Positions 10,364 to 60,940 of a stretch of 64,000 nt of DNA are shown piece after piece. The notes beneath the pieces are model-generated. The model was given only the letters and a program-made list of their open reading frames with translations, did not search any database and was not told the DNA's origin. Numbering within the stretch: position 1 is the first letter of the stretch; each line of letters opens with the position of its first letter. The stretch is taken from NCBI RefSeq assembly GCF_015732155.1, contig NZ_WIQK01000001.1, positions 2,428,001 through 2,492,000 on the forward strand, written 5' to 3'. A program made the translations under genes and the position numbers. The stretch comes from Pectinatus sottacetonis. Lineage in GTDB: Bacteria > Bacillota > Negativicutes > Selenomonadales > Selenomonadaceae.

Positions 10364-11224
10364 ATGGGGAAAAATATAGAAACCTTTGAACAATTAACAA
10401 ATATGCTTAAATACATTGCTGATATGTCTCCAACTTATAAGAAGATTGCGATATATATAAATGATAACTATTTACAAATTGTATTTATGACGACCAATGA
10501 ATTAGCTGAGCAGGTAGGAGTAAGTCAAGGAAGTATATCTAGATTTTTTATGGCACTTGGTTACAGAGGGTATAATGATTTTTTACAAAATCTGCAAAAT
10601 ATTGTCAGTAAAGAGCTGACAGCACCTAAAAGATTACAATTTAGTGAGAAACATGGTATTAAGGATAAATATATGCATTCTATATTTGATAATGAATTGG
10701 CAAATATGGAAAAACTTGGTGGTATTATGCAAACAAATACTTACCATGAAATTGTTAATATGATTGCATCTGATAAACAGATAGTACTATTATCAGCTAG
10801 AATGTCCGCAACTATTGTTCCTTATGTTAGTTATATATTGAACAAAATGCGGGATAAAGTCTGCTATTATACACCAGCTTCACCTCAATGGGATACGCTA
10901 GAGCTTATGGATACGACGGCAGTAAATATAATGCCAGTTATGTTTCCACGTTATCCCAGAATATTAGTAGAAAAATGTCAGAGACTTAAATCTAAAGGAT
11001 TTGACCTTTATGGGATTACGGATAGTGAATTTTCACCACTAATCGAATGCAGTCGAGCTGCTGTATGTGTACCATTGACGGTATCATCTATTTTTGACAT
11101 TTATAGTACACCAATGATTTTTTTCAATATTTTATTACGTGACGCTGCTAAAAAAATGCCAAAACTTTCGCGAAGAATGGACCAAATAGAAAAAACAGAG
11201 CTAGAAAATAAAGTATACTATTAA
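10364..11224 (+). CDS. MurR/RpiR family transcriptional regulator
   Basis: A 286-residue regulator with an N-terminal HTH_6 domain (residues 1-80; TTNELAEQVGVSQGSISRF is the recognition region and LGYRGYNDF the typical end) and a C-terminal SIS sugar-phosphate-binding domain (about 120-260, with IVLLSARMSATIVPYVSYIL at its start). Such proteins sense phosphosugars. The expected sugar genes are not adjacent, so the target is unknown; the HutD-like gene upstream is the nearest candidate partner. AAAGGGAGCAGGT precedes ATG 10364. A terminator lies about 170 bp after the stop. Confidence 0.85.
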   Translation: MGKNIETFEQLTNMLKYIADMSPTYKKIAIYINDNYLQIVFMTTNELAEQVGVSQGSISRFFMALGYRGYNDFLQNLQNIVSKELTAPKRLQFSEKHGIKDKYMHSIFDNELANMEKLGGIMQTNTYHEIVNMIASDKQIVLLSARMSATIVPYVSYILNKMRDKVCYYTPASPQWDTLELMDTTAVNIMPVMFPRYPRILVEKCQRLKSKGFDLYGITDSEFSPLIECSRAAVCVPLTVSSIFDIYSTPMIFFNILLRDAAKKMPKLSRRMDQIEKTELENKVYY

Positions 11225-11281
11225 TAACTATAGTGTTTATCTATAAATTTAGATAAGATGTCACATATAATTAAAAAAATT

Positions 11282-11350
11282 TAACTTTTTGTGGACAGAA
11301 TTCTCCCACTTCAAATGCCGCAGGAGGCATTAAGTGTGGGAGCATATCAT
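11282..11350 (+). repeat. Dispersed hairpin repeat, copy A
   Basis: Begins TAACTTTTTGTGG and contains a stem of CTCCCACTTCAAATGCC against GGCATTAAGTG-TGGGAG with loop GCAGGA (hairpin 11303-11342). A second copy in opposite orientation lies at 54533-54602. The two share about 80-85% identity over about 65 bases by eye, including the flank before the hairpin. The architecture resembles the ends of IS200/IS605-type elements or the 3' end of their associated RNA; no transposase or tnpB is present. Confidence 0.7.
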
Positions 11351-11391
11351 AGTTGGATCTTTGTAAAACATCTGTTCTTATATTATTTATG

Positions 11392-11440
11392 AAGACAAAG
11401 AAGCTTGTAAATAAATTATTTCAGCTTCCTTGTCTTTTTT
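11392..11440 (+). terminator. Terminator after the RpiR gene and repeat A
   Basis: AAGACAAAGAAGC pairs with GCTTCCTTGTCTT (one mismatch) and is followed by TTTTTATT. The rest of the 11225-11617 gap holds only repeat A and AT-rich sequence. Confidence 0.7.
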
Positions 11441-11617
11441 ATTGAGTGAAATTTACTCTTAAGTGTATTTATAATCACTATGCATTTTTTTTATCTGAGT
11501 AAAGACGATAGGGAAATCATATTAACTAGCGCAACAAGAATATAATATGTTAATATATATAATATATAAGAATAATTTTATTAAACTTATAGATAATATT
11601 TATATAAGGAGACAATT

Positions 11618-11971
11618 ATGATTTGTCAGAAATGTAATAGAGAAATTGGTAATAATAGATATTGTCCATATTGTGGGCATGATAATAATATTTCAATAAT
11701 GTCAAAACGGGAAAAAGAAAATTATACTGGGATTACAATTGATGGGGCCGACAATCGGATTCATAGCGGCAGGAACAGAAGACGTGGTCGGAAAACGTTT
11801 TTTTCCCAAGCATGGAATCTGTCAACCGGTAATAATATGCTATCACGGATTATTTGGGGAATAGGGATAGTGGCGATAATATCATTTATAATATTTGTGG
11901 CATTGCCTTTTTTATCTATAGCTGTTTTGTCAATTATAGTAGTATGGATCATTTTTAAAATGCTGCGGTAA
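11618..11971 (+). CDS. Zinc-ribbon membrane protein
   Basis: A 117-residue protein opening MICQKCNREIGNNRYCPYCG, a CxxC-x10-CxxC zinc ribbon. A basic linker (RNRRRGRK near residue 55) is followed by a hydrophobic region from about residue 80 to 115 that could form two close membrane helices. The ribbon would face the cytoplasm. Proteins of this plan are common in Firmicutes and mostly uncharacterised. SD AAGGAGACAATT precedes the ATG. A second zinc-ribbon membrane protein with a different C-terminal part lies at 51705. Confidence 0.65.
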   Translation: MICQKCNREIGNNRYCPYCGHDNNISIMSKREKENYTGITIDGADNRIHSGRNRRRGRKTFFSQAWNLSTGNNMLSRIIWGIGIVAIISFIIFVALPFLSIAVLSIIVVWIIFKMLR

Positions 11972-15475: not shown

Positions 15476-16717
15476 CACGTTCGTTTCATAAACCGGAAAA
15501 TAAATATTAACAAAAAAAGGAAATAAATGATATAATCCAAAGTAAAAAAGTATAGGTGAAAAAATGGATTATATCAAAGAAAAATTTGCAATAATAGAAG
15601 ATAACAGACATTCAAGCTATGTAGAACATAGTTTAACAGATATACTTATTATAATAATGTGTGCCGTATTGTGTGGATTAGATGAACTGGCAGATATAAC
15701 AACTTATGCACAAAGCAATGCAAAATTTTTAAAAAAGAAATTTAATATCACTAAAATCCCTTCTAAAGCTACTTTCAGCCGTATATTAAATATGATGGAC
15801 GCAGATAAAGTAGCCAGTGTAATTATTGAAATAATGCATGATGCAGCATACTGTGACTTGGGCGATGTTATTGCTGTAGACGGGAAGGCAATCCGTAGTA
15901 CCTCTAAAAAAGGTACACCGCATTCAGCACTGCAAATATTAACTGTATATTTAACACAAAGCGGCATCGTTTTAGGGCAAAAATCTATACATGAAAAGAC
16001 GAACGAGATTCCTGTATTCCAGCAGCTATTGGATAATCTAAACATTAAGGACAAGACAGTAACGGCTGATGCGATGCATTGTCAAAAAGAAACCTGCAAG
16101 AAAATTATAGCCAAGCATGGCAATTACGTTTTTGGGCTTAAGGAAAACCAAAAGACATTGCACGATGATGTTAAATTTTTCTTTGATGAAGAATTCGATA
16201 GCAAAACATTAGATTCTTATACGACAGTTGAAAAAAATGGAGGAAGAATTGAGAAACGCATCTGCAAAAAATGTTCAGATATTAAATGGCTGAATGGATA
16301 TAAAGAATGGGCAGGACTGAGTTCAATATTTGCAGTTAAGCGTATTACAACAACGAACCGTGGAACCAGTAATGAAACTGGTTATTATATAACAAGTAAG
16401 GATACAGATGCCAAAGAGCTTTTACATATTTGCCGTGAACATTGGAAAATTGAAAGCATGCATTGGCTGTTAGATGTAACCTTTTCGGAAGATGAGTGCT
16501 CTATTATATCTGAAAATGGGCAAAAAACTTTAAACAGCCTTAGAAAATTGGCATTACTGCTACATAAAAGATATTTAGCTAAGCAGCTTAAAAAATGTAG
16601 CATTAAAGCTAATCTGTTAAAATGTCTTATGAATAGCCAACTGTTATGTGAGGTCGCTGACTTATAAACTAACATTTCTTATTTAAGAACAATTATCTTG
16701 TTTATGAAACGAACGTG
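15476..16717 (+). mobile_element. ISAs1-family insertion sequence
   Basis: A 1242-bp element bounded by perfect 18-bp terminal inverted repeats (CACGTTCGTTTCATAAAC at 15476-15493 and its complement ending at 16717). It is flanked by an exact 9-bp target duplication ATGTAGATG (15467-15475 and 16718-16726). It carries one full transposase with its own promoter (TTAACA, 18 bp, TATAAT at 15531-15536). Ends, duplication and ORF are all intact, so the insertion is probably recent. Confidence 0.95.
15564..16667 (+). CDS. ISAs1 family transposase
   Basis: A 367-residue DDE transposase. The N-terminal DUF4372-like/H-repeat segment includes SSYVEHSLTDILIIIMCAVL and KATFSRIL. Catalytic region: first Asp in VIAVDGKAIRST, second in TVTADAMHCQKE, followed by YVFGLKENQKTL, and the Glu in HWKIESMHWLLDVTFSED. 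Length is normal for the family. ATG follows TAGGTGAAAAA. It occupies most of the element inside speD, with no frameshift or stop seen, so it may be active. Confidence 0.93.
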   Translation: MDYIKEKFAIIEDNRHSSYVEHSLTDILIIIMCAVLCGLDELADITTYAQSNAKFLKKKFNITKIPSKATFSRILNMMDADKVASVIIEIMHDAAYCDLGDVIAVDGKAIRSTSKKGTPHSALQILTVYLTQSGIVLGQKSIHEKTNEIPVFQQLLDNLNIKDKTVTADAMHCQKETCKKIIAKHGNYVFGLKENQKTLHDDVKFFFDEEFDSKTLDSYTTVEKNGGRIEKRICKKCSDIKWLNGYKEWAGLSSIFAVKRITTTNRGTSNETGYYITSKDTDAKELLHICREHWKIESMHWLLDVTFSEDECSIISENGQKTLNSLRKLALLLHKRYLAKQLKKCSIKANLLKCLMNSQLLCEVADL

Positions 16718-52746: not shown

Positions 52747-53637
52747 TCAGGTAATAGAAGCCGCATAAATTTTTTTAATACTGGCTGCAAGTGTGGAATT
52801 AAATTCTTTATCACTTTGATGTGCGGATAGTCCTTGGGCAAGGGCACGAGAAAAACTAGCTATAAGTCCTTTGTTGCGGGCAAGTTTTTCATCGGCAACT
52901 TCCTGACTGAATCCGCCGGAAAGAGCTACTACACGAATAACATTAGGCTGGTCATTTATTAAATCACTATAGAAATTGTCTACTTCAGGAATAGATAATT
53001 TTATCATTATTTTTGTATCTTTTGGCAGCAAAGCTAATTCCTTAAGTATTTCTTCTTTCAAAACTCTTTCTGATTCAGCTCTGTTTTTGCTGTTGATGTC
53101 CACTTCTGGTTCAAGAATAGGAACAAGACCTGCAGCAGCAATTTGTTTGCCTATTTCGAACTGCTGTTTAACAATTTTCTTTATGCCGACAGGATTAAAT
53201 TCCTTTATGACAGAACGCATTTTTGTTCCGAAAATATTGCGCTTTAAAGCGCGTTTTAACAAATCATCTAACTGGGGAATAGATTTCATGACCTGCACGC
53301 CATCAGCTAGTTCAGCAAGTCCCTTATCAACTTTTAAAAAGGGAACTATCCGTTTTTTATTCCATAAATAATCAGCGGTAAGATCTCCGTCAATAGTTCG
53401 ATCCATTGTATTTTCAAATAATATAGCACCTAAAATATACTTAGAGTTGAAAGCAGGACTCTTGATGATCCGCGTTCTCATTTCGTGGACTTTGGCAAAC
53501 ATTTCATCATTGCCATTATATTCATTTTCTTTTACACCGTAAGCCGCTAATGCTTTTGGTGTACTGCCGCCACTTTGATCTAATGCAGCAATAAAAGCCG
53601 TATCTTTACAAATTCTTTGTAATTGATCTTGATTCAT
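52747..53637 (-). CDS. fda: Fructose-bisphosphate aldolase class I
   Basis: Schiff-base aldolase of 296 residues, very like the staphylococcal Fda. It begins with GFIAALDQSGGSTPKAL-like sequence and contains ILGAILFENTMDR, VPFLKVDKGLAELADG, LVPILEPEVDI and the Schiff-base Lys in KIMIKLSIPE, then VVALSGGFS. It cleaves fructose 1,6-bisphosphate in glycolysis. AGGGAGGGCTAATTA-type ribosome site precedes ATG. It is monocistronic. The presence of a metal-free aldolase is usual in this branch of Firmicutes. Confidence 0.94.
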   Translation of the reverse strand: MNQDQLQRICKDTAFIAALDQSGGSTPKALAAYGVKENEYNGNDEMFAKVHEMRTRIIKSPAFNSKYILGAILFENTMDRTIDGDLTADYLWNKKRIVPFLKVDKGLAELADGVQVMKSIPQLDDLLKRALKRNIFGTKMRSVIKEFNPVGIKKIVKQQFEIGKQIAAAGLVPILEPEVDINSKNRAESERVLKEEILKELALLPKDTKIMIKLSIPEVDNFYSDLINDQPNVIRVVALSGGFSQEVADEKLARNKGLIASFSRALAQGLSAHQSDKEFNSTLAASIKKIYAASIT

Positions 53638-53759: not shown

Positions 53760-54197
53760 TTACCCGGTAGCAAATGCAGATGGTTGTTTGTGGGAATAAT
53801 ATTTGCGAGCAAAATAACTGATAATTTCCCGTCGCCTTATTATGCCGATAAATATATTACGATCATCGACAACAGGAACAAAATTCTGATTCATTGTTAG
53901 ACCAATTAAATCTTCAATTTCTGCATCAATATGGACGGCCTTATTTTTTATGTGTTTGTGGATTGTTTTTAAATTTATGTGTTCTAAATCTTTATCTTCA
54001 ATGCTGATTTTTTTATCTGTTAGAGTCCATAGAATATCGCCTTCTGTAAGTGTTCCTGCATATTTCCCTTTTTTATTTATTAAGGGAACAGCAGTATATC
54101 TGTGGTATTTCATTTTTTCCATAGCCTGACGAAGTGTGGAATCAGAGCGTAAATAAATTACTTTATCTTTGGGAAGTAAAAAAAAGGTTATTTTCAT
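53760..54197 (-). CDS. CBS-domain protein
   Basis: A 145-residue protein that is essentially one Bateman module. CBS1 (about 8-60) contains DSTLRQAMEKMKYHRYTAVP and KGKYAGTLTEGDIL; CBS2 (80-135) contains IEDLIGLTMNQNFVPVV and IGIIRRREII. Such stand-alone pairs bind adenine nucleotides or SAM and regulate partners. The start ATG 54197 follows GGAGAAAATT; the frame extends to 54245 without a ribosome site. It lies downstream of nothing obvious on its strand; partner unknown. Confidence 0.85.
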   Translation of the reverse strand: MKITFFLLPKDKVIYLRSDSTLRQAMEKMKYHRYTAVPLINKKGKYAGTLTEGDILWTLTDKKISIEDKDLEHINLKTIHKHIKNKAVHIDAEIEDLIGLTMNQNFVPVVDDRNIFIGIIRRREIISYFARKYYSHKQPSAFATG

Positions 54198-54532
54198 AAT
54201 TTTCTCCGTTAGTAACAAAAATAGATTACGCAAAATTACATACATCTGCTAAAATAAATCATTTATTTATCTGTGTATGTGTAGACATAAAAATAAAACT
54301 ATGCATTTATCCGTCTGTCCAGAAAGTGGTTGTGTATTATGCATGGTTAGGAATTATTGAGGATAAATTGAAAATCACTAGATAATATCTACTATTATAT
54401 TTTATATCAGATTTGGTCTTTAATTCAAGATAATAGTTTCAGAAAAATTAGTCAATAATAAAAATCTAAGTGATTTATCTTTAGCATGGTCTAATATTTA
54501 TATATTTTCCATAATTATTAAGTGTAATAAGT

Positions 54533-54602
54533 GACATACTCCCATCACTTAATGCCTTCTACGGCATTTGAAGTGGGGAAATTTTCGCCACAAAAAGTTG
54601 AA
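54533..54602 (-). repeat. Dispersed hairpin repeat, copy B
   Basis: Read on the minus strand it starts CAACTTTTTGTGG and folds CCCCACTTCAAATGCC against GGCATTAAGTG-TGGGAG with loop GTAGAA. It matches copy A (11282-11350). Differences fall mostly in the loop and in the spacer before the hairpin. The surrounding 54246-54861 gap is otherwise AT-rich, with no supportable gene. Confidence 0.7.
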
Positions 54603-54861
54603 TAAAAAGAATATTGTGTATATTTATCTGAATAAAATACTATCGCATTTCAATTTTTCTGTATTATGATATGCTGTTTCCCTATTCGTATATGTAAGTG
54701 TGGGAATTGTTATAGTTTGTTTGCATAAAAATAAGATTAATATTGATGCGGTAGTATGATAAAATTCATCGGTATTTTTTATAATTAGTATTTGCAGGCA
54801 GTAAAATGACAGAGGATTTTTAGTGTTTAAGTAAAATATGGGATGTGAGATGGATTTAATC

Positions 54862-55815
54862 TTATATTTTAGCAAGAATCCGCAGAAAATCATCTCTTGT
54901 TTCTGCCAAATTGAATAGACGTCTTAATTCAGCACCACCACTTAGTCCACGAGTGTACCATGTAGCATGTTTACGCATTTCACGTGGCCCGATATAATTG
55001 CCTTTCTTTTTTAAAAGCATGTCAAGATGTTCGATAATTATTTGTTTTCGTTCAATTAAGGTTGGTGGGGGAGTTTCCTGTCCGGTTTTTAGAAATTGGG
55101 AAAAATGACGGAAAATCCATGGATTGCCCTGAGCAGCTCGTCCGATCATTACAGCATCACAATGTGTACGGGTAAAGATATTTTTTAAGTCGGTACATGT
55201 TCTGATATCACCATTGCCTATGACGGGAATGGTGACGGTTTCTTTTACTTTAGCAATTATATCCCAGTCAGCCTGCCCACTGTAGAATTGCTCACGTGTT
55301 CGCCCATGTATGGCAATAGCATCTATTCCCGCAGTTTCAGCTAATTTGGCCATTTCAATAATATTTACATGGGCATCGTCCCAGCCTTTACGCATTTTCA
55401 CGGTAACTGGAAGGGATACAGCCTTTTTAACTGCATGCATTATAGCAAAAGCACGTTCAGGGTCAAGCATTAGGGCCGCTCCAGCATGATTTTTGACAAT
55501 CTTCGGCGCCGGACAGCCCATGTTTATGTCAATAATATCAGCACAGCCGAGATCTTCTATATATTTGGCTGCTTCAGAGATACTTTCTGGTGTGTCACCA
55601 AATAACTGCATTGCTAGCGGACGTTCTTTTTTTTCCGTTTGAAGCATTAGTAAAGTGTGCTTATTCCTAAAATGAATACCTTTGTCACTGACCATTTCAG
55701 AATAAACAAGACCGCAACCCATGCGCCGCGCTAGAATACGGTAAGCTGTATCAGTTACGCCGGCCATAGGGGCTAAAAATACAGGGATATCTATTTTTAA
55801 ATTTCCAATGAACAT
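54862..55815 (-). CDS. dusB: tRNA-dihydrouridine synthase (DusB-like)
   Basis: FMN enzyme of 317 residues reducing uridine in the tRNA D-loop. It starts with LKIDIPVFLAPMAGVTDTAY, has the catalytic Cys in DINMGCPAPKIV and the TIM-barrel FMN site residues in VKMRKGWDD, IHGRTREQFYSG and VIGNGDIRT. The C-terminal helical domain contains REMRKHATWYTRGL. The NifR3/DusB group is usual in Firmicutes. It follows coaX by about 40 bp, in a likely operon birA-coaX-dusB. Confidence 0.93.
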   Translation of the reverse strand: MFIGNLKIDIPVFLAPMAGVTDTAYRILARRMGCGLVYSEMVSDKGIHFRNKHTLLMLQTEKKERPLAMQLFGDTPESISEAAKYIEDLGCADIIDINMGCPAPKIVKNHAGAALMLDPERAFAIMHAVKKAVSLPVTVKMRKGWDDAHVNIIEMAKLAETAGIDAIAIHGRTREQFYSGQADWDIIAKVKETVTIPVIGNGDIRTCTDLKNIFTRTHCDAVMIGRAAQGNPWIFRHFSQFLKTGQETPPPTLIERKQIIIEHLDMLLKKKGNYIGPREMRKHATWYTRGLSGGAELRRLFNLAETRDDFLRILAKI

Positions 55816-58894: not shown

Positions 58895-59593
58895 TTATAT
58901 ATTGTCATGCCATGTTTTAACTAAGCTGAAAGCGGCTTGACGTGGATCTGCAGCATGTGTTACTGCTGATACGACAAAGAATCCGGCGGCCTTTGTCTGG
59001 GCAAGTTGAGGAATATCATTTATTTTTACGCCGCCGCCAACAACAACGGGAATAGGACTTATTTCGACTAGCTTGGCAATATCAGCAAAACTTCTTGTGA
59101 TTATTTGTCCGTGTTTATCTAAACCGCAATCTAGTTTAGTAGGGGTTTTGTGCAGTGGTCCTGCGCCAAAATAGTCAATTTGGCTTACATCAGCTGTTTT
59201 TACATAAGAAAATAATTCATCTGTTTTAGCAGATAAGCCTATTATAGAGTTTTCTCCCAGATATTTTCGGCAGACAGAAACAGGAATATCTGTTTGTCCA
59301 ACATGGATGCCATCAACTTTGGTACCGGCTTCTCGTGCGGCCAGGACAACATCAAGCCGATCATCTACGAGAAGAGAAATGTTATTTTGCTTATGGGCAG
59401 CAGCAATAACAGCAGCGGCTTGGGCGGTTATTGCAATAAGTTCACGGGCTGATGCTGTCTTGGAACGTATTTGAATACAAGTAAAACCGGCACTGACAGC
59501 AGCTGCTATGATATTTTGAACAGGCCGATTTTTGGTGTTTTCGGGACCTATTACCAGATAAGCAGAAATATTTAAATTCTTTCTTATATTCAT
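58895..59593 (-). CDS. thiE: Thiamine-phosphate synthase
   Basis: Joins hydroxymethylpyrimidine diphosphate and thiazole phosphate to thiamine phosphate. The 232-residue TIM-barrel protein has CIQIRSKTASARE, LLVDDRLDVVLAA, GIHVGQTDIP, IGLSAKT, DYFGAGPLHKTPTK and VVVGGGVKIND. It is the last gene of the operon and overlaps the thiamine-binding gene by 4 bp (ATGA). ThiD, which supplies the pyrimidine diphosphate, is not in the window. Confidence 0.95.
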   Translation of the reverse strand: MNIRKNLNISAYLVIGPENTKNRPVQNIIAAAVSAGFTCIQIRSKTASARELIAITAQAAAVIAAAHKQNNISLLVDDRLDVVLAAREAGTKVDGIHVGQTDIPVSVCRKYLGENSIIGLSAKTDELFSYVKTADVSQIDYFGAGPLHKTPTKLDCGLDKHGQIITRSFADIAKLVEISPIPVVVGGGVKINDIPQLAQTKAAGFFVVSAVTHAADPRQAAFSLVKTWHDNI

Positions 59594-59895
59594 TTTTGTG
59601 CTCCTAAGATATGATTTACTTTTGCTGGTTTTTCCTGCATCATATTTTTAAAACCAGGGCGTATATCTGCTTTTAAAACTACTTCGGTGCGTATTCCTTT
59701 TTCAGCTAATATAAATGTAGCTTCTTTAACTACTTGCATGACTTCATCCCATTCGCCTTCGATTTCGGTAAACATGGAGTTAGTACGATTGGGAAGACCG
59801 GAATTGCGAATGACTTTTACTACTTTGGCAACATCTGATGATAGTTCATCTCCCACACCACAGGGAGCTATGGCAACAGCAATTAATGTATTCAT
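59590..59895 (-). CDS. Thiamine-binding protein (MTH1187/YkoF-like family)
   Basis: A 101-residue protein of the MTH1187/YqgV family (DUF77), two-layer alpha/beta small protein. It opens with IAVAIAPCGVGDELS, then TNSMFTEIEGEWDEVMQVV and the late KADIRPGF. Related proteins bind thiamine, and placement between thiM and thiE supports that. It is coupled to thiE by overlap and lies 4 bp after thiM. A precise role is unproven. Confidence 0.85.
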   Translation of the reverse strand: MNTLIAVAIAPCGVGDELSSDVAKVVKVIRNSGLPNRTNSMFTEIEGEWDEVMQVVKEATFILAEKGIRTEVVLKADIRPGFKNMMQEKPAKVNHILGAQK

Positions 59896-59899
59896 TATT

Positions 59900-60736
59900 T
59901 TATATCTCCTCTATAGTAAATAAATTGGCAGCTATATCTTCAGCAGTGGCTTTATATAATTCATCAAGAAATTGAGCCTGAAAATGTCCTGGACCATGTA
60001 CGATCTTTTCAGCGCGTTTTCCAGCTAAATTATATATTGATACAGCGGTAAGCGCAGCAATGAATGGACTAGTGACGGTCGCATATATAGCAGCAACACC
60101 GCCTAAAGAACAGCCTGAACCAGTAATCATTTTTAAGAAATGGGAACCGCCGTAAGAAAAAATGATTTCTCGGCCATTTGTTATTAAATCTGTTTCACCT
60201 GATACAGCTACAGTACCATTGGTCCATTTTGCCAAGGAAATTGCTGATTGTCTGGCAGAAATTACTTTATCTGTGGAATCTACTCCACGTATGCCTGAAT
60301 GTGTTCTGCCACTTGGTAGTTCCCATAGGTTAGCCAAGGCAATAATTTCTGAAGCATTGCCGCGGATTATGCTGGGTCTATAGCCTTTTAATAGTTTAAG
60401 AAGTTTTTTTCTTAGGCTGCCCGCACCTATACCTACAGGATCTAATACCCATGATTTATGGGAATCGTATAAGATTTTTGCAGTTCGGGGAATTGATTCT
60501 TCATAAATCGGTAGCAATGTGCCAAAATTGATATACATGGCATTACCAGCTTTGGCTAAAGTCTCAGCCTCATCTGGTAAATAAATCATAGCTGCTGAGC
60601 CGCCAACGGCAAGCTGGGCATTAGCTACAAAATTTATGGTGACAGTATTTGTTATAGAAGCTACCATTGGATTTTCTTTCTTTACAGTATTTACTGCGTG
60701 AATAATTTCTTTTTGTATATTTTCTTGGGAAATCAA
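59900..60736 (-). CDS. thiM: Hydroxyethylthiazole kinase
   Basis: Phosphorylates the thiazole moiety in thiamine salvage. The 278-residue ribokinase-like protein has ASITNTVTINFVANAQLAVG, VLDPVGIGAGSLRK, IRGNASEI, VAVSGETDLI and the ATP/anion-hole Cys in MITGSGCSLGGV. It starts at a TTG (60736) after GAGGTAAATTTTA. It is the first gene under the TPP riboswitch, so expression should fall when thiamine pyrophosphate is high. Confidence 0.95.
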   Translation of the reverse strand: MISQENIQKEIIHAVNTVKKENPMVASITNTVTINFVANAQLAVGGSAAMIYLPDEAETLAKAGNAMYINFGTLLPIYEESIPRTAKILYDSHKSWVLDPVGIGAGSLRKKLLKLLKGYRPSIIRGNASEIIALANLWELPSGRTHSGIRGVDSTDKVISARQSAISLAKWTNGTVAVSGETDLITNGREIIFSYGGSHFLKMITGSGCSLGGVAAIYATVTSPFIAALTAVSIYNLAGKRAEKIVHGPGHFQAQFLDELYKATAEDIAANLFTIEEI

Positions 60737-60806: not shown

Positions 60807-60840
60807 AAAAAACTGCCTGTCCATTGGCAAGCAGTTTTTT
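60807..60840 (-). terminator. Expression-platform terminator of the TPP riboswitch
   Basis: On the minus strand AAAAAACTGCTTGCC pairs with GGACAGGCAGTTTTTT around a short loop, directly after the aptamer and about 70 bp before thiM. Confidence 0.85.
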
Positions 60841-60844
60841 ATTC

Positions 60845-60922
60845 AGCTCCCTGCGTTAGTATTAACTAACAGGTTCAAAGGGTCAGGTTTAACCTTCTCA
60901 ACTCATTTGAGTACCCCTGCAT
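60845..60922 (-). promoter_or_regulatory. TPP (THI-box) riboswitch
   Basis: Read on the minus strand: GCAGGGGTACT, GTTGAGAAGG (the CTGAGA-type block with a C to T change), ACCCTTTGAACCTG (exact conserved block) and ACGCAGGGA at the closing stem. It lies just before a terminator and the thiM operon. Confidence 0.93.
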
Positions 60923-60940
60923 ATTATATGACGGATGCTT

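Follow-up and report, generated by a model that had tools for sequence, protein, structure and literature searches.

The closest described systems to the locus reported here are insertion sequences of the IS605 type that have been shortened or that lie at inversion breakpoints. In Haloquadratum walsbyi, deletions between palindromes close to the termini have reduced such elements (HqIRS46, ISHwa23) to about 52 bp (PMC3119063), and a PATE-like sequence consisting of IS605 ends only is known from Halanaerobium hydrogeniformans (PMC7290912). In Helicobacter pylori, inverted copies of IS605 have been found at the breakpoints of inversions (PMC8002640).

In this paper we describe two hairpin-forming blocks, copies A and B, in the 2.69-Mb genome of a Pectinatus species (Negativicutes). 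We consider it very probable that A and B are PATE-like stubs of one IS605-type family, and that recombination between them, or between longer ancestral forms, flipped the 43-kb segment that they enclose. The finding is one of ordinary genome decay and rearrangement and involves no new system.

Results

The analysis started from a window, the whole stretch of 64 kb to which all positions refer unless genome coordinates are named. An initial annotation, made from the sequence of the window, had noted a hairpin block at 11282-11350 that recurs on the other strand at 54533-54602. Both copies are present: the block of about 70 nt lies at 11280-11350 (+) and its second copy at 54532-54602 (-), and a BLAST search with A of all 2.69 Mb aligns the two at 85% identity over 71 nt (E = 8.7e-16). 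A repeat search recovered the same pair as the inverted repeat I1 (11279-11336 / 54546-54603, 58 nt, 86%), which is the longest inverted repeat in the window; A and B now share no identical run longer than 16 nt. The complete block with both halves is found at exactly two sites genome-wide, by BLAST with A as well as by a covariance model of A and B. The right half alone occurs at two further sites, 1,128,773 and 1,195,851 of the genome, and the left half alone at two others, 2,506,533 and 719 kb (719,902-719,959 in the covariance model). Each copy is positioned just 3' of a gene and has no coding content, and about 65 nt leave no room for a transposase gene. The hairpins of A (11303-11342, +; -11.3 kcal/mol, z -3.3) and B (54540-54579, -; -10.7 kcal/mol, z -2.6) fold better as DNA than shuffled sequence. 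Conservation was said to cover the hairpin together with its flank, and this is borne out by the TTTTTGTGG flank, which does not differ between A and B, and by mismatches that fall mostly outside the stem.

Both copies are chimeric, with the left end of an IS605-type transposon fused to the right end. The left half is composed of TTYAA and CTTTTTGTGG..AATT..CCCACTTC and matches the left end upstream of an IS200-type tnpA, while the right half, CCCACTTCAAATGCC..GGCATTAAGTG.TGGGAG.AT.TCA, matches the right end just 3' of tnpB remnants. In the alignment, A and B agree through CCCACTTC with the left ends at 28-30 of 33 nt and with the right ends at the same place at 6-8 of 22. From CCCACTTC on they agree with the right ends at 27-30 of 30 nt, and past CCCACTTC with the left ends at 9-11 of 22. 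The switch from left-end to right-end similarity falls at CCCACTTC in both copies. With refined limits, copy A spans 11285-11349/50 (+). Its left-end half, CTTTTTGTGGACAGAATTCTCCCACTTC, covers 11285-11312 (+) and shares 28-29 of 33 nt with the left ends upstream of tnpA and 8 of 22 with the right ends at that position. Its right-end half covers 11305-11349 (+), overlaps the left half at CCCACTTC, ends in ATCA and shares 29-30 of the first 30 nt with the right ends 3' of tnpB; by BLAST it is 93% identical to the site at 1,128,773 and 91% to that at 1,195,851. At their termini the right ends read TATGTCA or TATGTCAC and copy A reads ATATCAT, so the final base of A is uncertain by one. Copy B contains the same fusion at 54532-54597 (-), its left part sharing 28-30 of 33 nt with the left ends and its right part 27-28 of 30 with the right ends.

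A TTYAA motif precedes every left end, namely A, B, the tnpA copies at 2,506 kb and 719 kb and that of P. brassicae. The presumed target is TTTAA in the left flank of copy A (11280-11284, +) and TTCAA beside copy B (54598-54602, -), and both have it on the left side only, which means that there is no target duplication. The two parental hairpins each contain the CCCACTTC motif (one mismatch in the 2,506-kb left end), and a deletion from one occurrence to the other therefore yields A and B precisely. An outer stem, predicted as GGCGA...TCGCC in the 2,506-kb copy, is also present in the left ends; A and B retain its 5' side only, as expected of a truncated left end. Because the left half corresponds to left ends and the right half to right ends, A and B can be understood as terminal-only, PATE-like deletion stubs; as in PATEs, both termini match an IS605-type element. 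The initial annotation had compared the block with an IS200/IS605 end hairpin left without its enzyme, possibly a solo end. The origin is right, since the left half recurs 5' of a Y1 tnpA and the right half is found again immediately after tnpB, but the block is not a single end.

The ends of the parent element lie beside tnpA and tnpB. The left-only sites are directly 5' of a Y1 tnpA (PF01797), which is truncated at 2,506 kb and intact at 719 kb, where the 134-aa TnpA belongs to the same family and has the HVH and tyrosine motifs. The right-only sites are directly 3' of tnpB remnants ending ...HDRDINAAINIREEGRRILSA. At 719 kb the left end, tnpA and the start of tnpB follow each other on one continuous stretch. 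In Pectinatus brassicae DSM 24661, one contig end has a left end 5' of tnpA, and two other contig ends have right ends 3' of tnpB (PF07282/PF01385). Taken together with the order at 719 kb, these positions identify the parent as an IS605-type element that runs from the left end through tnpA and tnpB to the right end, so that the family carries both genes next to its ends, as the parent of a PATE should. All parent copies in this genome are broken, and those of P. brassicae run off contig ends. An IS605 origin was to be given up if the copies numbered just two and nothing related adjoined a transposase; there are indeed only two full copies, but related sequence does lie beside transposases.

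A pattern scan of genome contigs matched only P. brassicae, a pattern scan of viral contigs and a similarity search of plasmid records gave no match, and the covariance model of A and B detected no additional fusion; what it matched in two other Selenomonadaceae genomes resembles left or right ends of other IS605-type elements. A BLAST match in genome G051 lies in coding sequence and was rejected as a chance hit. An empty site for A or B was not found in the four relatives, where divergence and rearrangement of the intergenic sequence are too great.

Ten long tnpB genes of this genome were rejected as parents of A and B because their right end differs. These genes (L040-L049, for instance at 592800-597200 of the genome) belong to another family, and the right ends read among them all finish in GGGAGGTTCAG; L040 also has a tnpA. 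In the upstream DNA of L040, L042, L043 and L045 we read group I intron-like sequence 5' of tnpB. That of L043 matches Rfam RF00028 with 67.7 bits, and the others look near-identical and were below the Rfam cut-off or outside the scan. Judged by sequence, these loci resemble IStrons, which are known from other Negativicutes (PMC4227781). The surroundings of the 2,506-kb left end (2506300-2508800 of the genome) contain, by eye, a serine-recombinase fragment, the truncated tnpA, a gene for a Tpt1/KptA-like RNA phosphotransferase and a second recombinase fragment, a mosaic that has the look of a graveyard of mobile elements.

The investigation of gene order in four other Pectinatus genomes shows that A and B coincide with both breakpoint intervals of an inversion. 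In all four, dus (here 54862-55815) is directly followed by a small gene (here 11618-11971), and in this genome the two are 43 kb apart. In G001, G002 and G004 the rpiR-family gene (here 10364-11224) is on one contig and co-oriented with the CBS gene (here 53760-54245) or the aldolase gene (here 52747-53637), whereas here they are opposed. Turning round the stretch from A to B brings back both ancestral arrangements. The interior of the segment is otherwise in order, being collinear from 11618 to 39675 in G002 and from 20545 to 53760 in G003 (partial comparisons). From gene places and orientations in the four species, the inverted segment is 11351-54531. The first breakpoint interval (11225-11540), between the rpiR-family gene and gene 11618, contains A; it is defined by gene order and by the rpiR-downstream sequence of the relatives, which now lies at 1.81 Mb, and to its right similarity to the relatives resumes at about 11541. 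The second interval (54246-54861), between the CBS-domain gene and dus, contains B, and is defined by dus being joined to gene 11618, and not to the CBS gene, in 4/4 relatives. A and B are the sole inverted repeat linking the two intervals, and the chance that two random positions would fall one into each is about 7e-8. Since the four relatives agree, the inversion arose in the lineage of this genome. Recombination between the inverted A and B, or longer ancestors of them, is its likely cause. An identical run of at most 16 nt is short for homologous recombination, so this probably took place when the copies were longer or more alike.

A single unaccompanied inversion would be too simple an account, since the cluster downstream of rpiR has moved as well. 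In 4/4 relatives a catabolic gene cluster is found 3' of rpiR; here it is at 1.81 Mb, where it starts with the sequence that comes after the rpiR stop codon in the relatives. The left side of A is therefore also a breakpoint of another rearrangement, at the other end of which the stub is absent. The moved cluster (1810800-1822000 of the genome, 0.6 Mb away) contains, by eye, urocanase-like, imidazolonepropionase-like, amidohydrolase and aconitase-X-like genes. A promoter-like TTGACA-17-TATAAT stands there at the old rpiR stop, and the rpiR regulator has been left without its neighbour.

Two further features of the window were observed. An insertion sequence at 15476-16717 encodes a DDE transposase (PF01609 + PF13808, 367 aa) and has terminal inverted repeats that match each other and what looks like a ATGTAGATG target duplication. 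The gene interrupted by this insertion is a single open frame in P. brassicae, and from the gene's sequence we take it to be speD (S-adenosylmethionine decarboxylase). A TPP riboswitch at 60831-60928 (-) lies 5' of apparent thiamine synthesis genes (58895-60736).

Discussion

We suggest that the stubs derive from a parent with the order left end, Y1 tnpA, tnpB, right end. Deletion between the CCCACTTC motifs of the left-end and right-end hairpins would remove the whole interior, and we infer such a repeat-mediated loss from the position of the join. What is left, about 65 nt, would be the left terminus next to the target, a single hairpin and the right terminus. Inverted copies of it, or longer ancestors, would then recombine and, in this Pectinatus lineage, flip the 43 kb that they enclose, although deletion and inversion can be ordered in time only by inference.

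The identical join in A and B raises the question whether the fusion was formed only once and then copied by a TnpA in trans, which would make A and B a mobile non-autonomous element. The intact 134-aa TnpA at 719 kb is of the same family and could have served, and a 52-bp terminal-only PATE is suspected to be mobile in Haloquadratum (PMC3119063). Given the shared motif, however, the same join is likely to arise twice, the copies are only two and 85% identical, and a single hairpin is left, whereas TnpA is described as binding one hairpin per end (PMC7290912). We regard copying in trans as possible but doubtful. It is very unlikely that the stubs still recombine or that a resident TnpA still acts on them, so that the 43-kb segment would be a reversible switch or the one-hairpin 65-nt element mobile today. 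Another possibility is that the stubs are found at the breakpoints by coincidence and that the inversion came about via another mechanism. As substrates for recombination A and B now have low identity, and there are other rearrangements nearby, but the sole two fusion copies in 2.69 Mb are inverted and lie one per interval, against a chance of about 7e-8, and a coincidence seems improbable to us.

The right half corresponds to the 3' end of the region in which TnpB systems encode their omega RNA. A and B might thus be free-standing guide-type (omega-RNA-like) RNAs, as the initial annotation had proposed, or RNA regulators, kept for other TnpB proteins. We find this extremely unlikely: of the region 3' of tnpB just the final ~45 nt are retained; the ~70 nt upstream of these, which four copies conserve 3' of tnpB, are missing; the right end of the ten long tnpB genes in this genome is a different one; and the blocks have no Rfam match. 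Just as unlikely is a role as transcription terminators or REP-like host sequences, for which the hairpins and the location of both blocks just 3' of a gene would be suitable. Neither hairpin is followed by a T-run, the terminator scan was empty there, and the suggestion of a REP-like family domesticated by a host TnpA does not fit two copies and no multi-copy array.

Read as PATE-like stubs at the ends of an inverted segment, A and B account for a previously unexplained hairpin repeat. A decay route of IS605-type elements, interior loss through a shared hairpin motif, known mainly from a haloarchaeon, is now found in Negativicutes. Such stubs are missed by ordinary annotation, and they can mark and probably cause chromosome inversions.

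The comparison with known systems shows the closest likeness to the terminal-only PATEs of Haloquadratum walsbyi, which are IS605-type, have undergone the same core deletion and have no transposase left. They belong to another domain of life, are unrelated in sequence and are found in many copies as opposed to two here, and the motif at their join is 19-22 bp long, compared with 8-9 nt in A and B. In the ends-only IS605 sequence of Halanaerobium hydrogeniformans a left end is likewise joined to a right end and the genes are gone, but it measures 271 nt and keeps 58 nt of tnpB, whereas A and B have about 65 nt and no coding sequence. REP and REPIN sequences with their TnpA-REP (PMC8266576, PMC3116915) are also short hairpin repeats related to Y1 transposases, but they have a high copy number and a dedicated transposase, neither of which is found for the two copies here. 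In TnpB omega RNA a complete scaffold is found 5' of the guide, and here there are only the last ~45 nt of the region. For the inversion, the parallel is Helicobacter pylori, where inverted IS605 copies are likewise found at both inversion ends; there they are near-complete elements within genomic islands, and here they are 65-nt stubs.
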